This document shows, in pieces, positions 9,290 to 26,636 of a stretch of 64,000 bases of DNA. The DNA comes from Botryococcus braunii. Its lineage: Eukaryota; Chlorophyta; Trebouxiophyceae. The notes under the pieces are model-generated. The model had not been told where the DNA came from. It ran no database searches and worked only from the letters and a program-made list of their open reading frames with translations. The DNA is taken from contig KV908518.1 of NCBI GenBank assembly GCA_002005505.1, positions 189,465 through 253,464 of the forward strand, written 5' to 3'. The number at the start of each line of letters is the position of its first letter. Within the stretch, counting starts at the first letter, position 1. Made by a program: the position numbers and the translations under genes.

Positions 9290-10390
9290 TTCCCGTTCGT
9301 CTCGGGCCCGTGAAAAGTCGACCAGAATGGGGCTCGTCAATTGCTGTTCCATCTAAGCCTGTCCCATCCAAGCCCTGTCCCATCCAAGCCTGTCCAAAAC
9401 TGACAGGAAATGTAGCCGTCCTATCCGGCCCATAGAACCTCGATAGAGATGGGGCTCGTCAATTCACATCCCATCCAAGGCGGCCCATAACTACCACAAA
9501 TTTACCCTACCAATCCGGCCCATAGAACCTCAACCGGGATGAGGCTCGTCAATTTGGGTCCCAACCGAGGTGGTCCAAAACTGACACACAGGTACCCGAC
9601 CAGTACGGCCCATGGGACCTCGACCGGGATGGGGCTCCTCAATTCAGGTCCCATCTGGGGCGGTCCAATATTGACACACATGTACCCGGCCAATACGGCC
9701 CATGGGACCTCGACCCGGATGGGGCTTCTTGGTCAGGTCCCATGCAAGGCAGTTTAAAATTGACACACACGTACCTGTCCAATACGGACCATGGAACCTC
9801 GACCCGAATGGGGCTCAACAGTTCAGGTCCCATCCAAGGCGGCCCATAATTGACACAAACGCACCCGACCAACCCGGCTGATGGGACCTCGACCGGGATG
9901 GGGCTCATCAGTTCAAGTCCCATCTGGGGCTGTCCAATATTGACACACATGTAGCCGACCCATACGGCCCATGGAACCTCGACCCGGATGGGGCTTCTTA
10001 GTTCTGGTCCCATGCAAGGCGGTCCAAAATTGACACACAGGAACCCGACCAATACGGCCCGAATGGGACTCATCAGTTCAGGTCCTATCCAAGGCGGCCC
10101 ATAATTGACACAAACGCACCCGACCAACCCGACCCATGGGACCTCGACCGGGATGGGGCTCCTCAGTTCAGGTCCCATCTAGAGCGGTCAAATATTGACA
10201 CACAGGTACCCGACCAATACGGCCCCATGGGACCTCGACCGGGATGGGGCTGGCCCATCTTTGTCACAATTTGGCGGCCAATACTTGACGGGGATGGGAC
10301 GAGCCGCATCCCTGTCGAGGTCCAATGGACCATATGGGACGGGGCCCCATCCCCGTCCCATACTGTCCCATTTCTTAACCCCAGACGGTA
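9290..10390. repeat. 90-bp minisatellite with three-unit higher-order pattern
   Basis: About eleven diverged units of roughly 90 bp, each with a core like ACCTCGACCGGGATGGGGCT, then GTCCCATC, then AATTGACACAC, then CGACCAATACGGCCCATGG. Unit types alternate A-B-C: starts near 9617, 9708, 9796, then 9887, 9977, 10063, then 10141. The unit length is a multiple of three, so long open frames with a 30-residue repeat arise on the minus strand; these are by-products. The array cuts off the pol gene of element B. Confidence 0.9.
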
Positions 10391-17642: not shown

Positions 17643-18140
17643 CGAAGTGTTGTGTTTGAGAGAGGATAAGGTACGTATCCGGATGTACAGGATCACGTAT
17701 GTACGTGAGTACGTCTGCTCTCTCAAGTACACTTTGTGGTTTTAGGCACGTCACTTGACAAGCTTGAACAAACATTAGATGTGCTTTAGAAAACGCATGC
17801 ACCAGGACACAAAAGTTGCTGTTATATAACACTCCTAATGCATATATGTATTAGAAGACCTGGAGAGAGTGCCCTCCATGGGAGATAGAGGTTCATAGCC
17901 CATCATGCAAGTACAGGTCTCAGTCAATGAAGTTCAAGGAACTATGATAGAGATCCTATCGAGCGTGTACACGTGTAGGACAGGTGTACAGATATAGCAT
18001 AAGTCCGTACTTCGTGGGTGTGACAAGTGTACCTCACACAGTTAGGGTGTGGTGATAAAGTACACCATTCTGCGGTGACCTGTGATTGTGTGTAACGCGC
18101 GATCAAGCTAGGAGGGGCAGATCGGCAGTTCGTTCCTCAG

Positions 18141-18641
18141 ACAGTTGGAGCTTTCTATCGAAGTTGCCTGGAGTCCTATTCAGTGGGAATCGCTGAAGGA
18201 CCTGTCTGAGACCTGCCGGAGTATTGCTCTCACTGATATCATGCTATGCTTGTGCATGTGGGCTGCGTGAGAGAATATCGGTAAGGCCCGGTTAGAGCAT
18301 CGGTTGCGTTTAGTAAATGATAGTTCATAAGTGTTAATGAGTGCCATTTAGTTGAAAAGACTGAATAACATTCAGTACTGTGCAGGAGGTTGTTGTTTTC
18401 TGTCTGTTGAGACAGTGCGAGCTGCATAAGTGTAGTATGTACACGGGTGGGCAGCGGTAAGAACACCTCCGGATAAAAACTTGTACATTGATGGAAGCCA
18501 TTGTGTTGTTTAGTTACTGGTGTAAGTATGATACTGATAGAGAGCAATGTACGTGACTCGTACAGGTGGTCAGTTGCGAGGATGGCGTCGTAACTGATGT
18601 GAGTGCTTGAGTAAGTGACAGATACTTACGATTGCGAACAG
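18141..18641 (+). other. Intron-containing copy of a three-exon leader segment
   Basis: Inferred exons 18141-18280 (140 nt), 18386-18456 (71 nt) and 18566-18641 (76 nt). Inferred introns 18281-18385 (105 bp, GTAAGG...GTGCAG) and 18457-18565 (109 bp, GTAAGA...GTACAG). Plausible branch-site motifs CTGAA and CTGAT lie upstream of the 3' ends. The third exon is followed by GTAATA, which could be a further 5' splice site, with 27 nt (18642-18668) retained before the second copy starts. No long open frame spans the exons, so this is most likely an untranslated leader. Confidence 0.85.
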
Positions 18642-18668
18642 GTAATAAACAACACCATGTAAAAGAAG

Positions 18669-18955
18669 ACAGTTGGAGCTTTCTATCGAAGTTGCCTGGA
18701 GTCCTATTCAGTGGGAATCGCTGAAGGACCTGTCTGAGACCTGCCGGAGTATTGCTCTCACTGATATCATGCTATGCTTGTGCATGTGGGCTGCGTGAGA
18801 GAATATCGGAGGTTGTTGTTTTCTGTCTGTTGAGACAGTGCGAGCTGCATAAGTGTAGTATGTACACGGGTGGGCAGCGGTGGTCAGTTGCGAGGATGGC
18901 GTCGTAAGTGATGTGAGTGCTTGAGTAAGTGACAGATACTTACGATTGCGAACAG
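18669..18955 (+). other. Intronless copy of the same leader segment
   Basis: 287 nt equal to the sum of the three exons (140+71+76), with a single base difference seen in exon 3. The joins fall at 18808/18809 and 18879/18880, exactly where GT-AG splicing would put them. It is therefore a copy of spliced RNA. Confidence 0.9.
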
Positions 18956-19101
18956 GTGGCATAGATACACCTGGAAACACAAGTGGTTACTGGATTGTAA
19001 CCAAGAGTTCAGTGATTGAGTGAATCACTGGGATACAGAACGTTCCGTGGACGGAACTGGCGTGCGACGTTTCCTCTATTCTGCTCTTCTACACAACAAT
19101 A

Positions 19102-19117
19102 GGTTAATGGGCCCACC
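19102..19117 (+). promoter_or_regulatory. Half-tRNA primer-binding site of element J
   Basis: GGTTAATGGGCCCACC, 3 nt after the 5' LTR. Apart from one extra A it is complementary to the anticodon arm of initiator tRNA-Met (GGTGGGCCCATAACC). The copia element of Drosophila is known to prime from this internal region. Confidence 0.75.
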
Positions 19118-22100
19118 TCTCTGAGAGAGGACAACATCGCAAGTGCCAGGAACCATTCACTCTAAGTTGAGCAGCTGCGAAACAAGCGAGCGGGCTCGGA
19201 GTCTTGAGACGACAGGATGAAGCTACATCAACAAGTGGTCCCATCATACAACATCGGATACGGCTTTCATCTCACAGGCTTGTGCATTTGCCAATGGGAA
19301 TGCACCTTCTCGACAGATGTGGCTGAGCCAAGTGATGTGTCATTTGAAAGATGGGAATTTTTTTATATGTTTGCTTCGGGAATAGTCGTGGTGGAAATAT
19401 TGGTTGGCGCGAGAGAGCGCTATTTCAGTTGCATTTGACACCATTGAGGGGTGTTGATGTGGAGTTTCAGCCGGGGTGATCACCTATGATTACATCATGG
19501 TACATGGTGCATGGTCCAGATGTGCTTCAGAAGGGTGATTTGCTGATTGTGGGAAGATTTGGATGGTGGGAGATTGCATACAAGAGTAATGAGTGGCTCC
19601 TTGCAAGGATATTGAAACTATCATAATCATCCAAGGTATGGGATAACTGGATTTATTGGTATTTTGCTGATTGATGAATGAATACCAGGGTTCAAAACCC
19701 CTGGTGTATGTAATCAGTTAAATGGTGAGTTAGTCTGGCATTGTGATACAACGTGAGTGAAGAGAACATGACTGGTCTTCTAGAGCTGGCATAAGTAAAT
19801 GTTGGCATGAAACTAACTTTGAGTTGCATTGATTGAGGATGCAGGGGAAGAGGATGGCTGGTGGGCTGATTAAGTGCCTCAAGCAACTTCTGCTTTTGTA
19901 GCTGGAGTTGGCCTCTTGATGAGGATTCATCCGGGGCACATCCTCTCGGGCGGTCTACAGTTTTCTTCTGTAGGTTTGTCCTATTAATTTTAGGATTTGA
20001 GCCTCGACCAAGAAAAGTAAAAGTGGGGGGGGGGGGGCTCTAAGCAAGGGTCTGGGCTTGGTATTGAAGAAGTGCTTATGTGCATGTTGTGTATGTGCAT
20101 TGGCATGTTTGACAAGACTGGTCTACATGATATCGAATTGGGACGAGAGTTAGTGTGGATTGTCTTTTTGCACATTCATGTGTATGTGTGTGTTGTAAGA
20201 GGGTGCTGCACATGCAAATCTTAATCACCAAAGGGGCTTGTAGATCAACATAAGAGATCTATGCTTGAGTAAAGATGAAACTTGCATGGCAGCAACTAGA
20301 ATCCCAAAAATGTGTGAGCTGAGTATGCTTGCCAATTGTGGGAGTATTTGGACCGAAGCTGATGCAAAATTGAGTCATGAGAAGTTTCAAAGTTATCGTT
20401 GCGCAACGATAAATTTGATCGCATGCGCACACGCGTTTTGGTAGGGAAGTCTGGTACTGCACCAACTTCTTGATGATTTAACATGATGGCATAAGGTAAT
20501 GACAATTGTCTTCAAACCTTAAGCTCAGACTCATGGAAGAAGTAATCTGAGTGGTTAGCGCGGAACTTATGGAAATGAGTGTTTTTCAAGTTATCATTGC
20601 TCAAACGTATGGGAGATCGTGACCCAGATTTCTATCCGGAGGAGGGAGGAGATTTTGTGGAGATGCTAAGAAGTGTTTCTGGAGCTCAAGAATTGAGATG
20701 TGAGTGCCATCAAGTGTTGCACCATCAGTTTGGAAGTAATGAGGATGTCAAGTTGATTTTGGTAATGACTGGGGAAGAAGTGAGGAGTAGTAGTGTATTA
20801 GGTTGTGGGTCACAAAGGGTGAGATCTGCAATTGATGATAAACTTGGTTAGTGTGACAATGGTGTTGTATTTTCCAAAAGATTACATCAAGATACATCTT
20901 GGAGTGCTTGGATTTTGAAGCATTGATGGGCTGCAACAACGAAGGTGCTTTCCAATTCAACAAAGGAGCAATGTTGCCAAGATTGCTTGATGTATTCTTT
21001 TATGGAATGGCATTTTTTTTTTCATTTCTAGACTTTATAATTGGGAATCCAAGAAACCAAAGGATTGAGATGTTCTAGCTGTTGGTTTAAGTGTTTGGGC
21101 AAGTAGCTGATCAGGAGAGTCAGGTGAAGGACTCAAGAGGCTTGTGTACTTGCTCAAAACTATCTGGATACAGCATGTTGAGATCAACTCATATGTCATG
21201 AGGGATGTGGTTGTGTGTATGGTTCCAAGCACCATGATCTAAAGTTTTTTTCCTATGGTTGGATTGCCAGGTCATGCTTATGTCTATGTGTGCATTTGTA
21301 AAGGGGGGCATCTGTTCTTGTTGTGAGCAGTTCCTGCCTTAATGGTGAGTATTATTTTGGAATATTGGTGCAAGGGGACCATTCTGATGAGAGGCTGGTC
21401 ACTTCTTTGCTTCCTGTGACAATTTTCTAACATGAAAACCCTACCTCAATAATCCAATTGAGGTAGGGATGGGTCATGATGTGTGATGGTTGGGATACTC
21501 TTGTGTGTGACAGACAACCTTTTGAGGTGACATCTAGTTGAGGAGATACTGCCCATTGTTAAGGGCTGTAATTTTCCTCCAATGTAGTCAACTTAACTCT
21601 ACAGTCTTCTGTAGCGTTGTTAAGATTTTGGTTAAAACTGAAAGGGGCTGTGGCTGGTTAAGTGTTTTTCAGACGTCGTTGCGCTGGTGCGCAACGTGCA
21701 AGTTTGCCACTAGGTACACTTGGAAAGTGGTCTTTTAGTGTGGCATTGTATTTGAGATAATTTTAGAATTTGCTTAGACAATTTGGTGTGAACTGAGTGT
21801 TTTCCCTGGTCCTGGGAAGCACAGGGAGGCCTTGCAGCCCTCACTGCATAGAAAACGTGTTAGGTCTAGTTCTCACACGTTAGTGAGAGAGACTTCGCGT
21901 CGATGTCTGGTTTTACGGTTCGACTCGAGTGAGTTCGAGTGGTTATTACGCGCCTTCAGGATTGAAACTCCGTGTCGAATTATGAATTTTGTCGATCGGG
22001 GTACGGTTCGATACTCCGGACGATTCGTGCTTCGGATCTCCTGGTTGTTTTAACTTCATGATTTATCTAAGCCACAGTTATTGGCTGAGACCTTGCTGAG

Positions 22101-22867
22101 GATCATTTGTGTTTTGACCCTTGAACATTTGGTCACTATTTTGTGCCGTGCTTCTACCCAGGGTTTGAGGGGAGGCATTTGGATGCGCTTGTTATCGACG
22201 CTTGAGCTCTCTACTTTGTTAAATGAGTACAATGGTAGAACTCAGGAGTTTAAGTTCCGTGCAATTTGCTGCATGATATGTATGTTGTTTGGAGGTACTG
22301 GATTGTACCTGAACATTAAATAGCAGATTGAAAGTAGAAGTGTTGGTTGGGGACGGATGATTTGTAGTCCCGCACTTCTGGATATTCAAGTTTTGTGAAC
22401 TGAGGTGAGGCTATTGTGCCTGTGCTCTGGGCATATTACGTTTGTCGCGTAGTCCAAGCTGAGGATACACCATACTAGTCATGAATGAAGGCCCTCATGA
22501 GGCCCTGATCAGGTGTGAATGAACCAACTTTGGTGAGTTTAGTGTTTCACTCGGTCTGGATTTAAGGAGTGTTGTTGTCTGAGTTCAGAAGTTGTTCGGT
22601 CGATGGGCCATTAAGGACTCGGGACAATTGATGTTTTGAATGGTTGAGGAATTATTGAGTGAAAAAAAATATATAAGTACTGATTGGCGCTTCACGTTAA
22701 AGTGTTGGTCGTGTTGGTAGTGGGTAACGGTAACGGTAAGAGTGGTGGTGCCCTTCATTGAAGAGAAAGAGGGACAGCACGTTCCACGTGCATTAGTGGT
22801 GGTCACCACGATAGGCCTTGAGTTTAGAAACTACTGCTGTTAGTGCGTGTGTTTTTTGGAATTCACA
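19118..22867 (+). other. Non-coding interior of element J
   Basis: About 3.7 kb without a recognisable gene. Short open frames (for example 20579-20851, 21538-21738, 22081-22323) show no known motif. It contains a poly-G run near 20026-20038 and a perfect 12-bp hairpin at 21439-21468. It may be decayed gag-pol or captured DNA. Confidence 0.55.
21439..21468. repeat. Perfect 12-bp hairpin
   Basis: CCCTACCTCAAT and ATTGAGGTAGGG enclose a 6-nt loop (21451-21456). It lies in the interior of element J. Function unknown. Confidence 0.75.
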
Positions 22868-23204
22868 ACTGGGCTGAGTATGCTGTCCTGGGAAGCAAAG
22901 GAATGGGGAAGCAAACCCTGGAGGGGTGGGTTGATTCTGATTTTGCGGGAGACATGGACACAAGAAAATCCACGTTGGGATTTGTGTTCATGTTAAATGG
23001 AGGAGCAGCTTTTTGGTGAAGCAAGTAACAGCAGTTGGTTGGGACATCGACGGTCGAAACCCAGTACATTGCTGCGAATCATGCATTGTCGAAATATACC
23101 AAGCACATAAGTGTGTGCTATCATCAGGCTTGGGAGAAAGTAGTATGGGGTCAAATATTGCCGGAATATGTGAAAACTGACGAGAATGTGGCAGATCTGT
23201 TAAA
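22868..23204 (+). pseudogene. RNase H remnant of element J pol
   Basis: Plus-strand remnant of the copia RNase H. Motifs: GWVDSDFAGDMDTRKSTLGF, then an in-frame TGA after GGAAFW, then STVETQYIAA, then SKYTKHISVCYH and KTDENVADLL. A stretch of about 40 residues between STVETQYIAA and SKYTKHI is missing, including the usual DN motif. Where LTKPL would be expected, an AAT microsatellite takes over. The orientation shows that J is a plus-strand element. Confidence 0.8.
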
Positions 23205-23393
<189 letters not shown>

Positions 23394-23552
23394 CAACTGA
23401 ACAGTCCATTCTTTCTGAAGCATAGGGATACCTTGAAGAAGGGCATGGTGTAACGGTTAAGAGACAGAGAGTAGTGGGTGGATGTCAGGTTTGGAACTTA
23501 CAATGTGAACAGAGATTATTACACGCAAGCAAGTGCCTAAAAGGGGAAGTAT

Positions 23553-25001
23553 TGTTGTGTTTGAGAGAGGATAAGGTACGTATCCGGATGTACAGGATCA
23601 CGTATGTACGTGAGTACGTCTGCTCTCTCAAGTACACTTTGTGGTTTTAGGCACGTCACGACAAGCTTGAACAAACATTAGATGTGCTTTAGAAAACGCA
23701 TGCACCAGGACACAAAAGTTGCTGTTATATAACACTCCTAATGCATATATGTATTAGAAGACCTGGAGAGAGTGCCCTCCATGGGAGGTAGAGGTTCATA
23801 GCCCATCATGCAAGTACAGGTCTCAGTCAATGAAGTTCAAGGAACTATGATAGAGATCCTATCGAGCGTGTACACGTGTAGGACAGGTGTACAGATATAG
23901 CATAAGTCCGTACTTCGTGGGTGTGACAAGTGTACCTCACACAGTTAGGGTGTGGTGATAAAGTACACCTTTCTGCGGTGACCTGTGATTGTGTGTAACG
24001 CGCGATCAAGCTAGGAGGGGCAGATCGGCAGTTCGTTCCTCAGACAGTTGGAGCTTTCTATCGAAGTTGCCTGGAGTCCTATTCAGTGGGAATCGCTGAA
24101 AGACCTGTCTGAGACCTGCCGGAGTATTGCTCTCACTGATATCATGCTATGCTTGTGCATGTGGGCTGCGTGAGAGAATATCGGTAAGGCCCGGTTAGAG
24201 CATCGGTTGCGTTTAGTAAATGATAGTTCATAAGTGTTAATGAGTGCCATTTAGTTGAAAAGACTGAATAACATTCAGTACTGTGCAGGAGGTTGTTGTT
24301 TTCTGTCTGTTGAGACAGTGCGAGCTGCATAAGTGTAGTATGTACACGGGTGGGCAGCGGTAAGAACACCTCCGGATAAAAACTTGTACATTGATGGAAG
24401 CCATTGTGTTGTTTAGTTACTGGTGTAAGTATGATACTGATAGAGAGCAATGTACGTGACTCGTACAGGTGGTCAGTTGCGAGGATGGCGTCGTAACTGA
24501 TGTGAGTGCTTGAGTAAGTGACAGATACTTACGATTGCGAACAGGTAATAAACAACACCATGTAAAAGAAGACAGTTGGAGCTTTCTATCGAAGTTGCCT
24601 GGAGTCCTATTCAGTGGGAATCGCTGAAGGACCTGTCTGAGACCTGCCGGAGTATTGCTCTCACTGATATCATGCTATGCTTGTGCATGTGGGCTGCGTG
24701 AGAGAATATCGGAGGTTGTTGTTTTCTGTCTGTTGAGACAGTGCGAGCTGCATAAGTGTAGTATGTACACGGGTGGGCAGCGGTGGTCAGTTGCGAGGAT
24801 GGCGTCGTAAGTGATGTGAGTGCTTGAGTAAGTGACAGATACTTACGATTGCGAACAGGTGGCATAGATACACCTGGAAACACAAGTGGTTACTGGATTG
24901 TAACCAAGAGTTCAGTGATTGAGTGAATCACTGGGATACAGAACGTTCCGTGGACGGAACTGGCGTGCGACGTTTCCTCTATTCTGCTCTTCTACACAAC
25001 A
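23553..25001 (+). repeat. 3' LTR of element J
   Basis: 1449 bp partner of 17648-19098. The intron-bearing segment starts at 24044 (introns from 24184 and 24360), and the intronless copy starts at 24572. It is followed by CGAAG, the target duplication. Confidence 0.95.
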
Positions 25002-25006
25002 CGAAG

Positions 25007-26636
25007 TCCTTGGACATGGGGGTATCAACCACACGCCCATCATCAGCAACCCCAAACTTTTCCACAAGAGCATCAATCTTGGGAGTGCAACTCATGGAAA
25101 TAGTGCTCTGAACTCTATTGCGTAGGACCTGACACCCCAGGAAATCATTCACCTCTCCCAACTCATGGATGGTGAAGTCCTTCTTCAACAACTCTTTCCC
25201 CCACTCAATCTCTGCAACCAATCTGGCAACTATGAGAAGATCATCAACATAAACAAGAATAAAGGACAGGTTGCCATCAGGTGCCCTCCTGATGTATACA
25301 CCCGCATCACTCTTGCACACACTATACCCCATCACGCTCAACTTGTCGGTCAAGGTCTTGTGCCAAGCCCGTGGGGCTTGTTTTAGACCGTATAGTGCCT
25401 TCCTGAGCTTGCACACAACCCTCGTGTTGCCATTCTCAAATCCTGGTGGTTGGGTCACATAGACCTCTTCCTCCAACTCTCCATTGAGAAAAGCCGTCTT
25501 GATATCCACTTGGTGGATCTCAAGATTCTGTGTGGCAGCCACTGGCAGCACAGCCCTCCTTGCCCCATAGCTGCTGGTGGGTGCAAATACCTCCCCAACA
25601 TCTATCCCAGGGATCTGTCTACACCCTTGGGCAACTAACCTCGCTTTAAAGCGAGTAACATTCCCATGTGCATCAATTTTAGTGGAGAATATCCAATGGA
25701 CAGGAATAACTTTTTGTCCATGTGGTCTGTCCACATACTCTAGAACCTCATGGGTATCAAGGGAATCCATCTCTTCCCTCATTGCTTGTTGCCAAAAATC
25801 CCACTGAGGGGAGCATTGGGCTTCCCTCAGGTTAGATGGCACGTGAACCTTTCCCAGCTTGACATAAGGTACATTTTGTACCTTATGCTGAGACTCTGCA
25901 GTACTGTCAGCACTCCTGGGACTGTTGTCTTTTGTATTCCTCTGATCCTGGTTCCCAGAATAAGGTACATTTTGTACCTTATGTTGAGATCCTGCAGTAC
26001 AGCCAGAACTGCCAGAGCCCTCCCCAACTCTCTCTCTTGAACTGCCAGACTCATGCGCTCCACCATTACAATCTCTCACCTTTCTCAATGCAGGTGGAAG
26101 CATCAGCTCTCTCTCTCTCCTGGACTCACACCTAGGTACACTACTCTGACTTTCCTGAGCTGCGCCTACTGTGTCAGGCTGCACCCCATAAGCATGACTG
26201 GTTCCCAGCTCAACTTGGCTACGTGCTTCCCCTGCTGCTGGCACTTCTAGCCCACTACTCTTCTTGCTAACATCTTCTCCAAGCATAGCCTCCCCTGTCT
26301 CAACCTGCCTCTGCAAATCAGGGAGACCTACCGAGGGTGGCTCACTCACAAGTACCTGGCCTGAGCCAGGGTCATGCATGGGGACCCCTACTGAGTCCCT
26401 CCTAGCCTGGCGCTGTTCATAACGCTGATCCCTTGTGAGGGTGGTTCCTGGGGGAAGTCTATGTTGAGACTTCCCCTGGAACCTGACCCCCTCCTGCATC
26501 TTCTGCAGTTTGTCCAGCTGCGAGTGCGCTTCAGCACCCCCCGAGCTAAATTTTGAAGATGGCCCAGCACTGACCATGACTGCTGTGAGGTCTCTGAAGT
26601 GGCAGGGGAACCATCCTGGCTGCTGGGGGCTCCAGC
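25007..26636 (-). pseudogene. Reverse transcriptase part of element I pol
   Basis: Copia reverse transcriptase on the minus strand, open for most of its length (to 26577). A long Ser/Gln/Gly-rich linker comes first. The RT follows with motifs HWIFSTKIDAHG, RFKARLVAQG, VDIKTAFLNGELEEEVY, LYGLKQAPRAW, and the catalytic YVDDLL, then LGEVNDFLGCQV. It was one gene with 16909-17642 before J inserted and with 34130-35049 before C inserted. It is not functional in this state. Confidence 0.9.

Follow-up and report, generated by a model that had tools for sequence, protein, structure and literature searches.

A putative Copia-type LTR retrotransposon of Botryococcus braunii that probably rewrites a spliced copy of its leader inside its own LTR

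How does a long terminal repeat (LTR) come to hold an intron-bearing segment and, directly beyond it, the same segment with its introns removed? The question is raised by a retrotransposon in a 64,000-nucleotide stretch of Botryococcus braunii contig KV908518.1, which is the whole stretch of DNA that we analyzed and which we call the window. A preliminary description had reported the two segments, here called A and B, in both LTRs of this element, with GTAATA following the first copy and GTGGCA the second. We found this layout in the 5' and the 3' LTR, with the two hexamers in the places described: positions 18141 to 18641 minus both introns leave 287 nt, which match 18669 to 18955 at 286 of 287 positions, the sole mismatch being C18594 against G18908. 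The copies and the introns therefore stand as described, while the start of the segments and the 27-bp gap between them need correction. Identity begins two bases earlier, A at 18139 and B at 18667, both at AGACAG, which gives a spliced unit of 289 nt and a linker of 25 nt (Table 1). By eye the linker resembles the start of U5, and the aligner also ran on into the linker in several LTRs.

Table 1. Features of the retrotransposon in the window
Feature	Positions	Strand	Remarks
U3 part of 5' LTR, upstream of segment A	17648..18138	+	LTR pair, target-site duplication CGAAG
Segment A exon 1, 142 nt, opens AGACAG (inferred RNA 5' end)	18139..18280	+	
Intron 1, GTAAGG..CAG, 105 bp	18281..18385	+	Missing from B
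Segment A exon 2, 71 nt	18386..18456	+	
Intron 2, GTAAGA..CAG, 109 bp	18457..18565	+	Missing from B
Segment A exon 3, 76 nt; terminal CAG is the alternative acceptor in L030	18566..18641	+	
Linker, 25 nt: GTAATA, TGTAA, then hypervariable junction bases 18665-18666	18642..18666	+	
Segment B, 289 nt, spliced exons 1 to 3	18667..18955	+	Concerted with A
U5 part of 5' LTR, opens GTGGCA	18956..19098	+	
Internal region	19099..23552	+	Longest listed ORF 152 aa, degenerate RNase H-like stretch
3' LTR segment A, three exons and two introns	24042..24544	+	
3' LTR linker, junction bases identical to those of the 5' LTR	24545..24569	+	
3' LTR segment B, spliced copy	24570..24858	+	

The element extends from 17648 to 25001, and its LTRs (17648 to 19098 and 23553 to 25001) are 99.66% identical in the LTR-pair comparison. 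Because the LTRs run from TG to CA and the identical 5 bp, CGAAG, lie at each side as a target-site duplication, the element is a genuine insertion, and it has the near-identical LTR pair, the terminal dinucleotides, and the short target duplication of an LTR retrotransposon. The sequence ATAGGTTA(A)TGGGCCC directly follows the LTR in the position of a primer site, and this candidate site may resemble the initiator-tRNA anticodon arm used by copia. With an interior of 4,454 bp and no ORF longer than 152 aa, the window copy, and this copy only, is classed as non-autonomous (LARD-like). A degenerate stretch near 22880 to 23200, interrupted by stops in the window copy, is presumably Copia RNase H-like, and we likewise assume that the RNase H-like coding end, which is open in a related element on contig C20, is of Copia type. 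The internal region also includes a pure TAA repeat of ~190 bp at 23201 to 23393. An RVT_2 (Copia-type) ORF on the opposite strand, at 24982 to 26577 (-), adjoins the element, which probably inserted into another Copia element. Elsewhere in the window, self-BLAST revealed a tandem array at 9377 to 10251 with units of roughly 90 bp and ~75 to 81% identity. A chlorophyll-binding family search, with a PDB comparison for one fragment, found light-harvesting genes of plant/green-algal type in the host. This places the host among green algae or plants and, since the PDB entry 6zzx derives from Chlorella, perhaps among the trebouxiophytes.

A genome search of the 176-Mb assembly with 18141 to 18955 as the query returned at least 41 matches (40 of 95 candidates scored), and 37 of these span the query completely or minus one base. 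Searches with U3 and U5 as queries covered 40 of 118 and 40 of 48 candidates, respectively; given these three scoring fractions, the family size is a lower bound. From the U3 and U5 queries and the stretches that we fetched, we parsed 47 LTRs having at least two copies of exon 1, and the layout of A, linker, and B in these LTRs, which fall into four subfamilies, establishes that the window element is not a one-off. Subfamily J1 is window-like; segment A differs from that of J1 by ~7% in J2 (about L032 to L041), by ~15% in J3 (L056 to L060), and by ~21% in J4 (L049 and L050). Several family members are solo LTRs or pairs with matching 5-bp duplications. We dropped L009 from independent counts, taking it as a haplotig since it has the downstream flank and the A-B differences of the window 3' LTR, and we counted L042 to L044 as one locus. 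Outside the 47 are L047 (run of N), L048, L051, and L053 (truncated), L052 (inverted), L065, and L066. Whole-LTR distances were set aside for pairs whose LTRs have other lengths; these values include flank. At L010 (contig C764) and L017 (C14), neighboring LTRs differ at 10 to 11 of 1,426 positions and LTRs across the two contigs are nearly identical, a pattern that reflects either ectopic recombination or a mis-join.

When B was set against A, an intron-aware aligner recovered two GT-AG deletions, neither more nor fewer, in 43 of the 47 LTRs, which excludes chance; this exact loss of introns at GT-AG boundaries is the mark of a processed copy made by reverse transcription of spliced RNA. The 43 include L030, which uses a different acceptor for the second intron. 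The four exceptions are both L029 LTRs, where B is without exon 3, L049, where the second donor has decayed, and L059, where B is broken. Introns 1 and 2 can be aligned across J1, J2, and J3 and, by eye, in J4. The linker is common to all subfamilies, so the layout itself arose once. Other parts of the LTR have been exchanged: L024 and L025 combine J1-like exons with J2-like U3 and U5, and L032 and L033 combine J2-like exons with J1-like U5. In L024/L025 and L034 to L041 (J2), a shorter and different U5 (GTGCTTATTC...) starts precisely at the end of exon 3, which implies that U5 modules were swapped at the splice boundary.

Although the layout is shared, the sequence of B follows that of its own A. 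At 18 diagnostic columns between J1 and J2, scored in 23 LTRs, B carries the base of its own subfamily in 411 of 414 cells, and a clade consisting of A segments only was rejected by the AU test (21 LTRs, difference in log likelihood of 642.8, p 2.1e-55). The mean divergence between A and B within an LTR is 0.6% in J1, 0.9% in J2, 6.9% in J3, and 8.0% in J4, compared to 7 to 21% between subfamilies; in J4 this value is hardly below the A-A divergence of 8.8%. Many J1 forks in the A/B tree are without resolution, and L056_A groups with L057_A (92/89), not with its own B. The grouping of these two A segments, like the linker common to all subfamilies, would fit a single duplication by reverse transcription followed by ordinary inheritance of A and B, but the rejection of the A-only clade and the diagnostic cells make such a history very improbable.

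The differences between A and B have a narrow distribution: across 38 LTRs, all but three columns show differences confined to a single LTR or to LTRs that belong to the same insertion. One of the three columns is common to L010_1508 and L017_5907, which differ at only 1 of 1,426 positions, and the other two involve L031, a chimera described below. Ten LTR pairs have 34 A-B differences over 20 comparisons, versus 20 A-A plus B-B differences over 20, and part of this excess consists of differences that were present on arrival and are common to both LTRs of a pair. Together with the low divergence within an LTR, these mostly private differences suggest that each insertion begins with a B that copies spliced A almost perfectly. 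These comparisons lend good support to the view that B is remade repeatedly from A and has almost no history of its own. We also considered a conventional RNA start at B alone and rejected it, since in that case B should have retained a separate history.

The bases just before B vary more than any others that we compared. In 20 J1 LTRs, positions 18666 and 18665 were the most variable of 833 columns, with entropies of 1.49 and 1.19 and a mean of 0.043; this count uses one LTR per presumed insertion and excludes L031, and L017_161 and L014 (1 difference in 1,426 positions) may be sisters within it. Across subfamilies, the bases between ATGTAAA and AGACAG include none, T, G, C, GA, AGA, AGG, AGT, ATG, AATG, and GCC. 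Within insertions, the two LTRs of a pair have the same eight bases before B in 8 of 10 cases, and the remaining 2 pairs each show a single-base difference. The motif AGACAG also opens the extra unit of L030, the foreign B-U5 of L031, and the inverted copy L052. On this reading of the genomic junctions, the join before B is freshly made, and we infer that its variable bases are untemplated additions made where the enzyme reached the 5' end of the RNA. The junction bases are unchanged in two nearly identical LTR pairs (L010_1508/L017_5907 and L017_161/L014), each of which may represent one insertion or a cycle without renewal.

Further copies differ in which introns and segments they retain. 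L030 has an extra unit consisting of exons 1 and 2 and the linker, in which a 186-nt intron (GTAAGA..CAG) from the exon 2 donor to the end of exon 3 is missing, with 0 differences in 238 nt; the junction of exon 2 and linker was found once in the genome (2 or fewer mismatches). In both LTRs of L029, B consists of exons 1 and 2 joined to U5, an arrangement that a deletion between GTGG repeats might also have produced. The preliminary description had proposed a genome search for copies with a single segment only, and the search yielded unspliced, partly spliced, and fully spliced ones. Intronless single-segment LTRs occur on C370 and C236 and as both LTRs of the C20 element (target-site duplication GTGGA), one locus represented on three contigs retains intron 1 only, and C68 has both introns, with the donor of the second altered. 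In all of these the single segment joins U5 directly. Over 289 nt, the exons on C20 match the spliced A of the J2 copy L040 without a single difference, which places the intronless C20 element inside the intron-bearing J2. Single-segment LTRs of these kinds would be the expected leftovers if leader cDNA, whether spliced, partly spliced, or unspliced, transferred to exon 1 of A.

We found 73 spliced exon 2/exon 3 junctions, 22 of them without an upstream linker match; our inspection covered these 22 except for C30, C20:368938, C63, C66:341787, C159:328193, and C260. The boundary between intron 2 and exon 3 lies at the expected distance before the linker at 53 of 55 linker sites, and spliced A was found before the linker at 0 of the 55 (2 or fewer mismatches, a threshold that misses diverged copies). 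A genome search for exon 1 joined directly to exon 3 gave one match with 2 mismatches, which is a chance match by its context.

These copies bear on two explanations that do not involve repeated reverse transcription. The first is a plain tandem duplication of a short segment, with the two introns inserted into one copy later; the preliminary description had named such an order, with the short segment ancestral, as the case that would speak against its proposal. Intronless single-segment LTRs do occur, as this order would have it, but the introns are alignable across J1 to J3, the intronless C20 element is nested within J2, and the alternative acceptor of L030 is exact, so we regard later insertion as hardly credible. 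Intron gain of the introner type was rejected on the alignable introns and the nested intronless form. The second explanation is that a single ancient reverse transcription event made B and that gene conversion between DNA copies has since kept the exons of A and B alike. Concerted evolution alone would fit this, yet gene conversion should at times move introns into B or out of an A that precedes a linker, for which we found 0 cases in the 47 parsed LTRs and 0 at the 55 linker sites. It also leaves the variable join, the L030 isoform, and the intronless single LTRs unexplained, and we reject it as improbable.

Transfer between RNAs of different subfamilies may be read in L031. Its segment A is 4 substitutions from J1, its B is 0 to 1 substitutions from the J2 copies L037, L040, and L036, and its U5 is of the J2 type, with the switch from J1 to J2 falling exactly at the start of B. 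This is as expected if the strong-stop cDNA of one RNA had landed on the RNA of another subfamily. The apparent 5' partner of L031, L052, is rearranged. L052 (C598:29900-31100) lies upstream of the chimera on the same contig and consists of two inverted B-U5 units that abut precisely at AGACAG, one side carrying the primer site of the element; it looks like a snap-back of strong-stop cDNA. Two other rearrangements were seen: L065 (C38:92500-94300), where a J2-type A and linker precede a partial B and an inverted exon 3, and the U3 of L050 (C551), where a palindrome holds an inverted second copy of part of U3.

The preliminary description had proposed splicing inside the LTR transcript and copying of the spliced RNA back into the LTR beside its unspliced template. 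Exact splicing, concerted evolution, and the fresh join all support this proposal, and the chimera and the by-products are visible in the same genome; together, the comparisons indicate that the copying back is recurrent, a point beyond the earlier description. We consider it quite probable that the element, an LTR retrotransposon apparently of Copia type, has in its LTR a three-exon leader, A, and a spliced copy, B, that is rewritten by reverse transcription.

The linker contains motifs that suggest how this rewriting may proceed. TGTAA occurs 6 to 11 nt before B in 44 of the 47 LTRs (all but L027_7234, L058, and L059), and in chlorophytes UGUAA is most frequent at -17 relative to the point of cleavage and ranges between -10 and -30 (PMC1868727), making the linker TGTAA a candidate chlorophyte poly(A) signal. 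At that spacing, RNA cleavage would fall at about base 8 of B, so a short repeat like AGACAGTTGG would be present at both RNA ends; among the copies listed, those of J1 and J2 have AGACAGTTGG at the start of both A and B, and single J3 and J4 copies deviate. Approximately 14 nt before TGTAA, the linker also has GTAATA. We consider this a putative third 5' splice site because removing the linker and the old B from the leader gives exactly B-U5 and because L030 uses the end of exon 3 as an acceptor.

In the cycle that we propose, with its inferred start site, poly(A) site, short R, splicing in vivo, and untemplated bases, transcription would start at AGACAG of A in the 5' LTR. The leader would lose introns 1 and 2 and a third intron, which would open at GTAATA in the linker, span B, and close at the terminal CAG of B, and the product would be exons 1 to 3 joined to U5 and the primer site. 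Removal of intron 3 would thus take the linker's poly(A) signal away from the 5' end of the RNA. In the 3' LTR, where A would be unspliced, the RNA would end shortly past the linker TGTAA, within the first bases of B, leaving a short repeat of about AGACAGTTGG at both ends. The minus strong-stop cDNA of the spliced leader, carrying one or a few untemplated terminal bases, would anneal to this short repeat and be extended through linker, A, and U3. The new LTR would then read U3, A, linker, B, U5, with B freshly made from spliced A, and a strong-stop cDNA that landed on exon 1 of A instead would produce single-segment spliced LTRs.

We hold with about even confidence that splicing of the 5' leader is obligatory, with intron 3 deleting the upstream poly(A) signal and the old B, the strong-stop cDNA supplying the new B, and the start of B serving as the next short R. 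This model requires that the 3' A stay unspliced despite splice sites identical to those of the 5' A; no rule that would keep it so is visible in the sequence at the 55 linker sites, where 0 have a spliced exon 2/exon 3 junction. Our guess is that the introns have been selected as an enhancer or for poly(A) choice.

A different landing of the strong-stop cDNA is possible, if rather doubtful. B would still be made by reverse transcription of a spliced leader, but either the RNA would run past B into U5 and the strong-stop cDNA anneal along all of B, or the cDNA would make an end-to-end jump without homology onto the 3' end of the RNA at the linker. J1 has a second TGTAA in U5, so J1 RNA may end after B; AATAAA also occurs in the linker, and the junction changes mostly by single-base substitution, which would suit annealing along B. 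However, TGTAA is missing from the U5 side (160 nt scanned) in most J2 and J3 LTRs, though it is kept in the linker, and a longer run of A would be expected after an end-to-end jump onto a poly(A) tail.

It is already known that LTR elements can have introns in their interiors, that spliced retroviral RNA can be reverse transcribed, and that the foamy virus LTR contains a splice donor. Plant LTR elements are generally intron-free, with Ogre and EVADE as exceptions (PMC12786077), and the sections of that article drawn on here make no mention of introns located in the LTR. This family is like Ty1/copia in its TG..CA LTRs and 5-bp target duplication but differs in that its LTR contains introns together with a spliced copy that is renewed. 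Foamy virus has an LTR donor in R, upstream of the poly(A) signal, and U1 snRNP bound to this donor suppresses 5' polyadenylation (PMC3694450). The algal sequence shows a comparable arrangement, with a candidate donor within the LTR and upstream of a candidate poly(A) signal. Unlike in foamy virus, its acceptors also lie within the LTR, so splicing alters the strong-stop template itself; we claim no relation of descent. Spliced HIV-1 RNA is packaged and reverse transcribed (PMC1868081), but the major HIV-1 donor is downstream of the primer site, which leaves R-U5 intact, whereas in the algal element the intron loss lies within the strong-stop cDNA and is fixed in the LTR. For the R2 enzyme, untemplated bases at the template end accompany template jumping (PMC8857657); R2 is a non-LTR enzyme studied in vitro, while base addition in the algal element is deduced from genomic junctions. 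In the open-licence literature that we searched, we found no account of an LTR whose introns are accompanied by a renewed spliced copy.

Whenever a spliced leader is reverse transcribed, any introns in the transcribed portion of the LTR should vanish. Here two of them have been kept across subfamilies that differ by up to ~21%, and the apparent reason is that the spliced cDNA arrives at a copy dedicated to the spliced form. RNA splicing thus appears to be built into the way in which this element copies itself, an unusual case of a DNA segment that is repeatedly re-derived from spliced RNA. If leader splicing is indeed obligatory, each generation would derive part of the LTR anew by way of spliced RNA instead of inheriting it from the counterpart LTR, and each join would record the untemplated bases added by the reverse transcriptase at the 5' end of the RNA. 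In its successive insertions the genome preserves a natural record of first-strand transfer, of alternative splicing, of transfer between RNAs of different subfamilies, and of base addition at RNA 5' ends. How splicing, poly(A) choice, and reverse transcription are coupled can thereby be tested directly.
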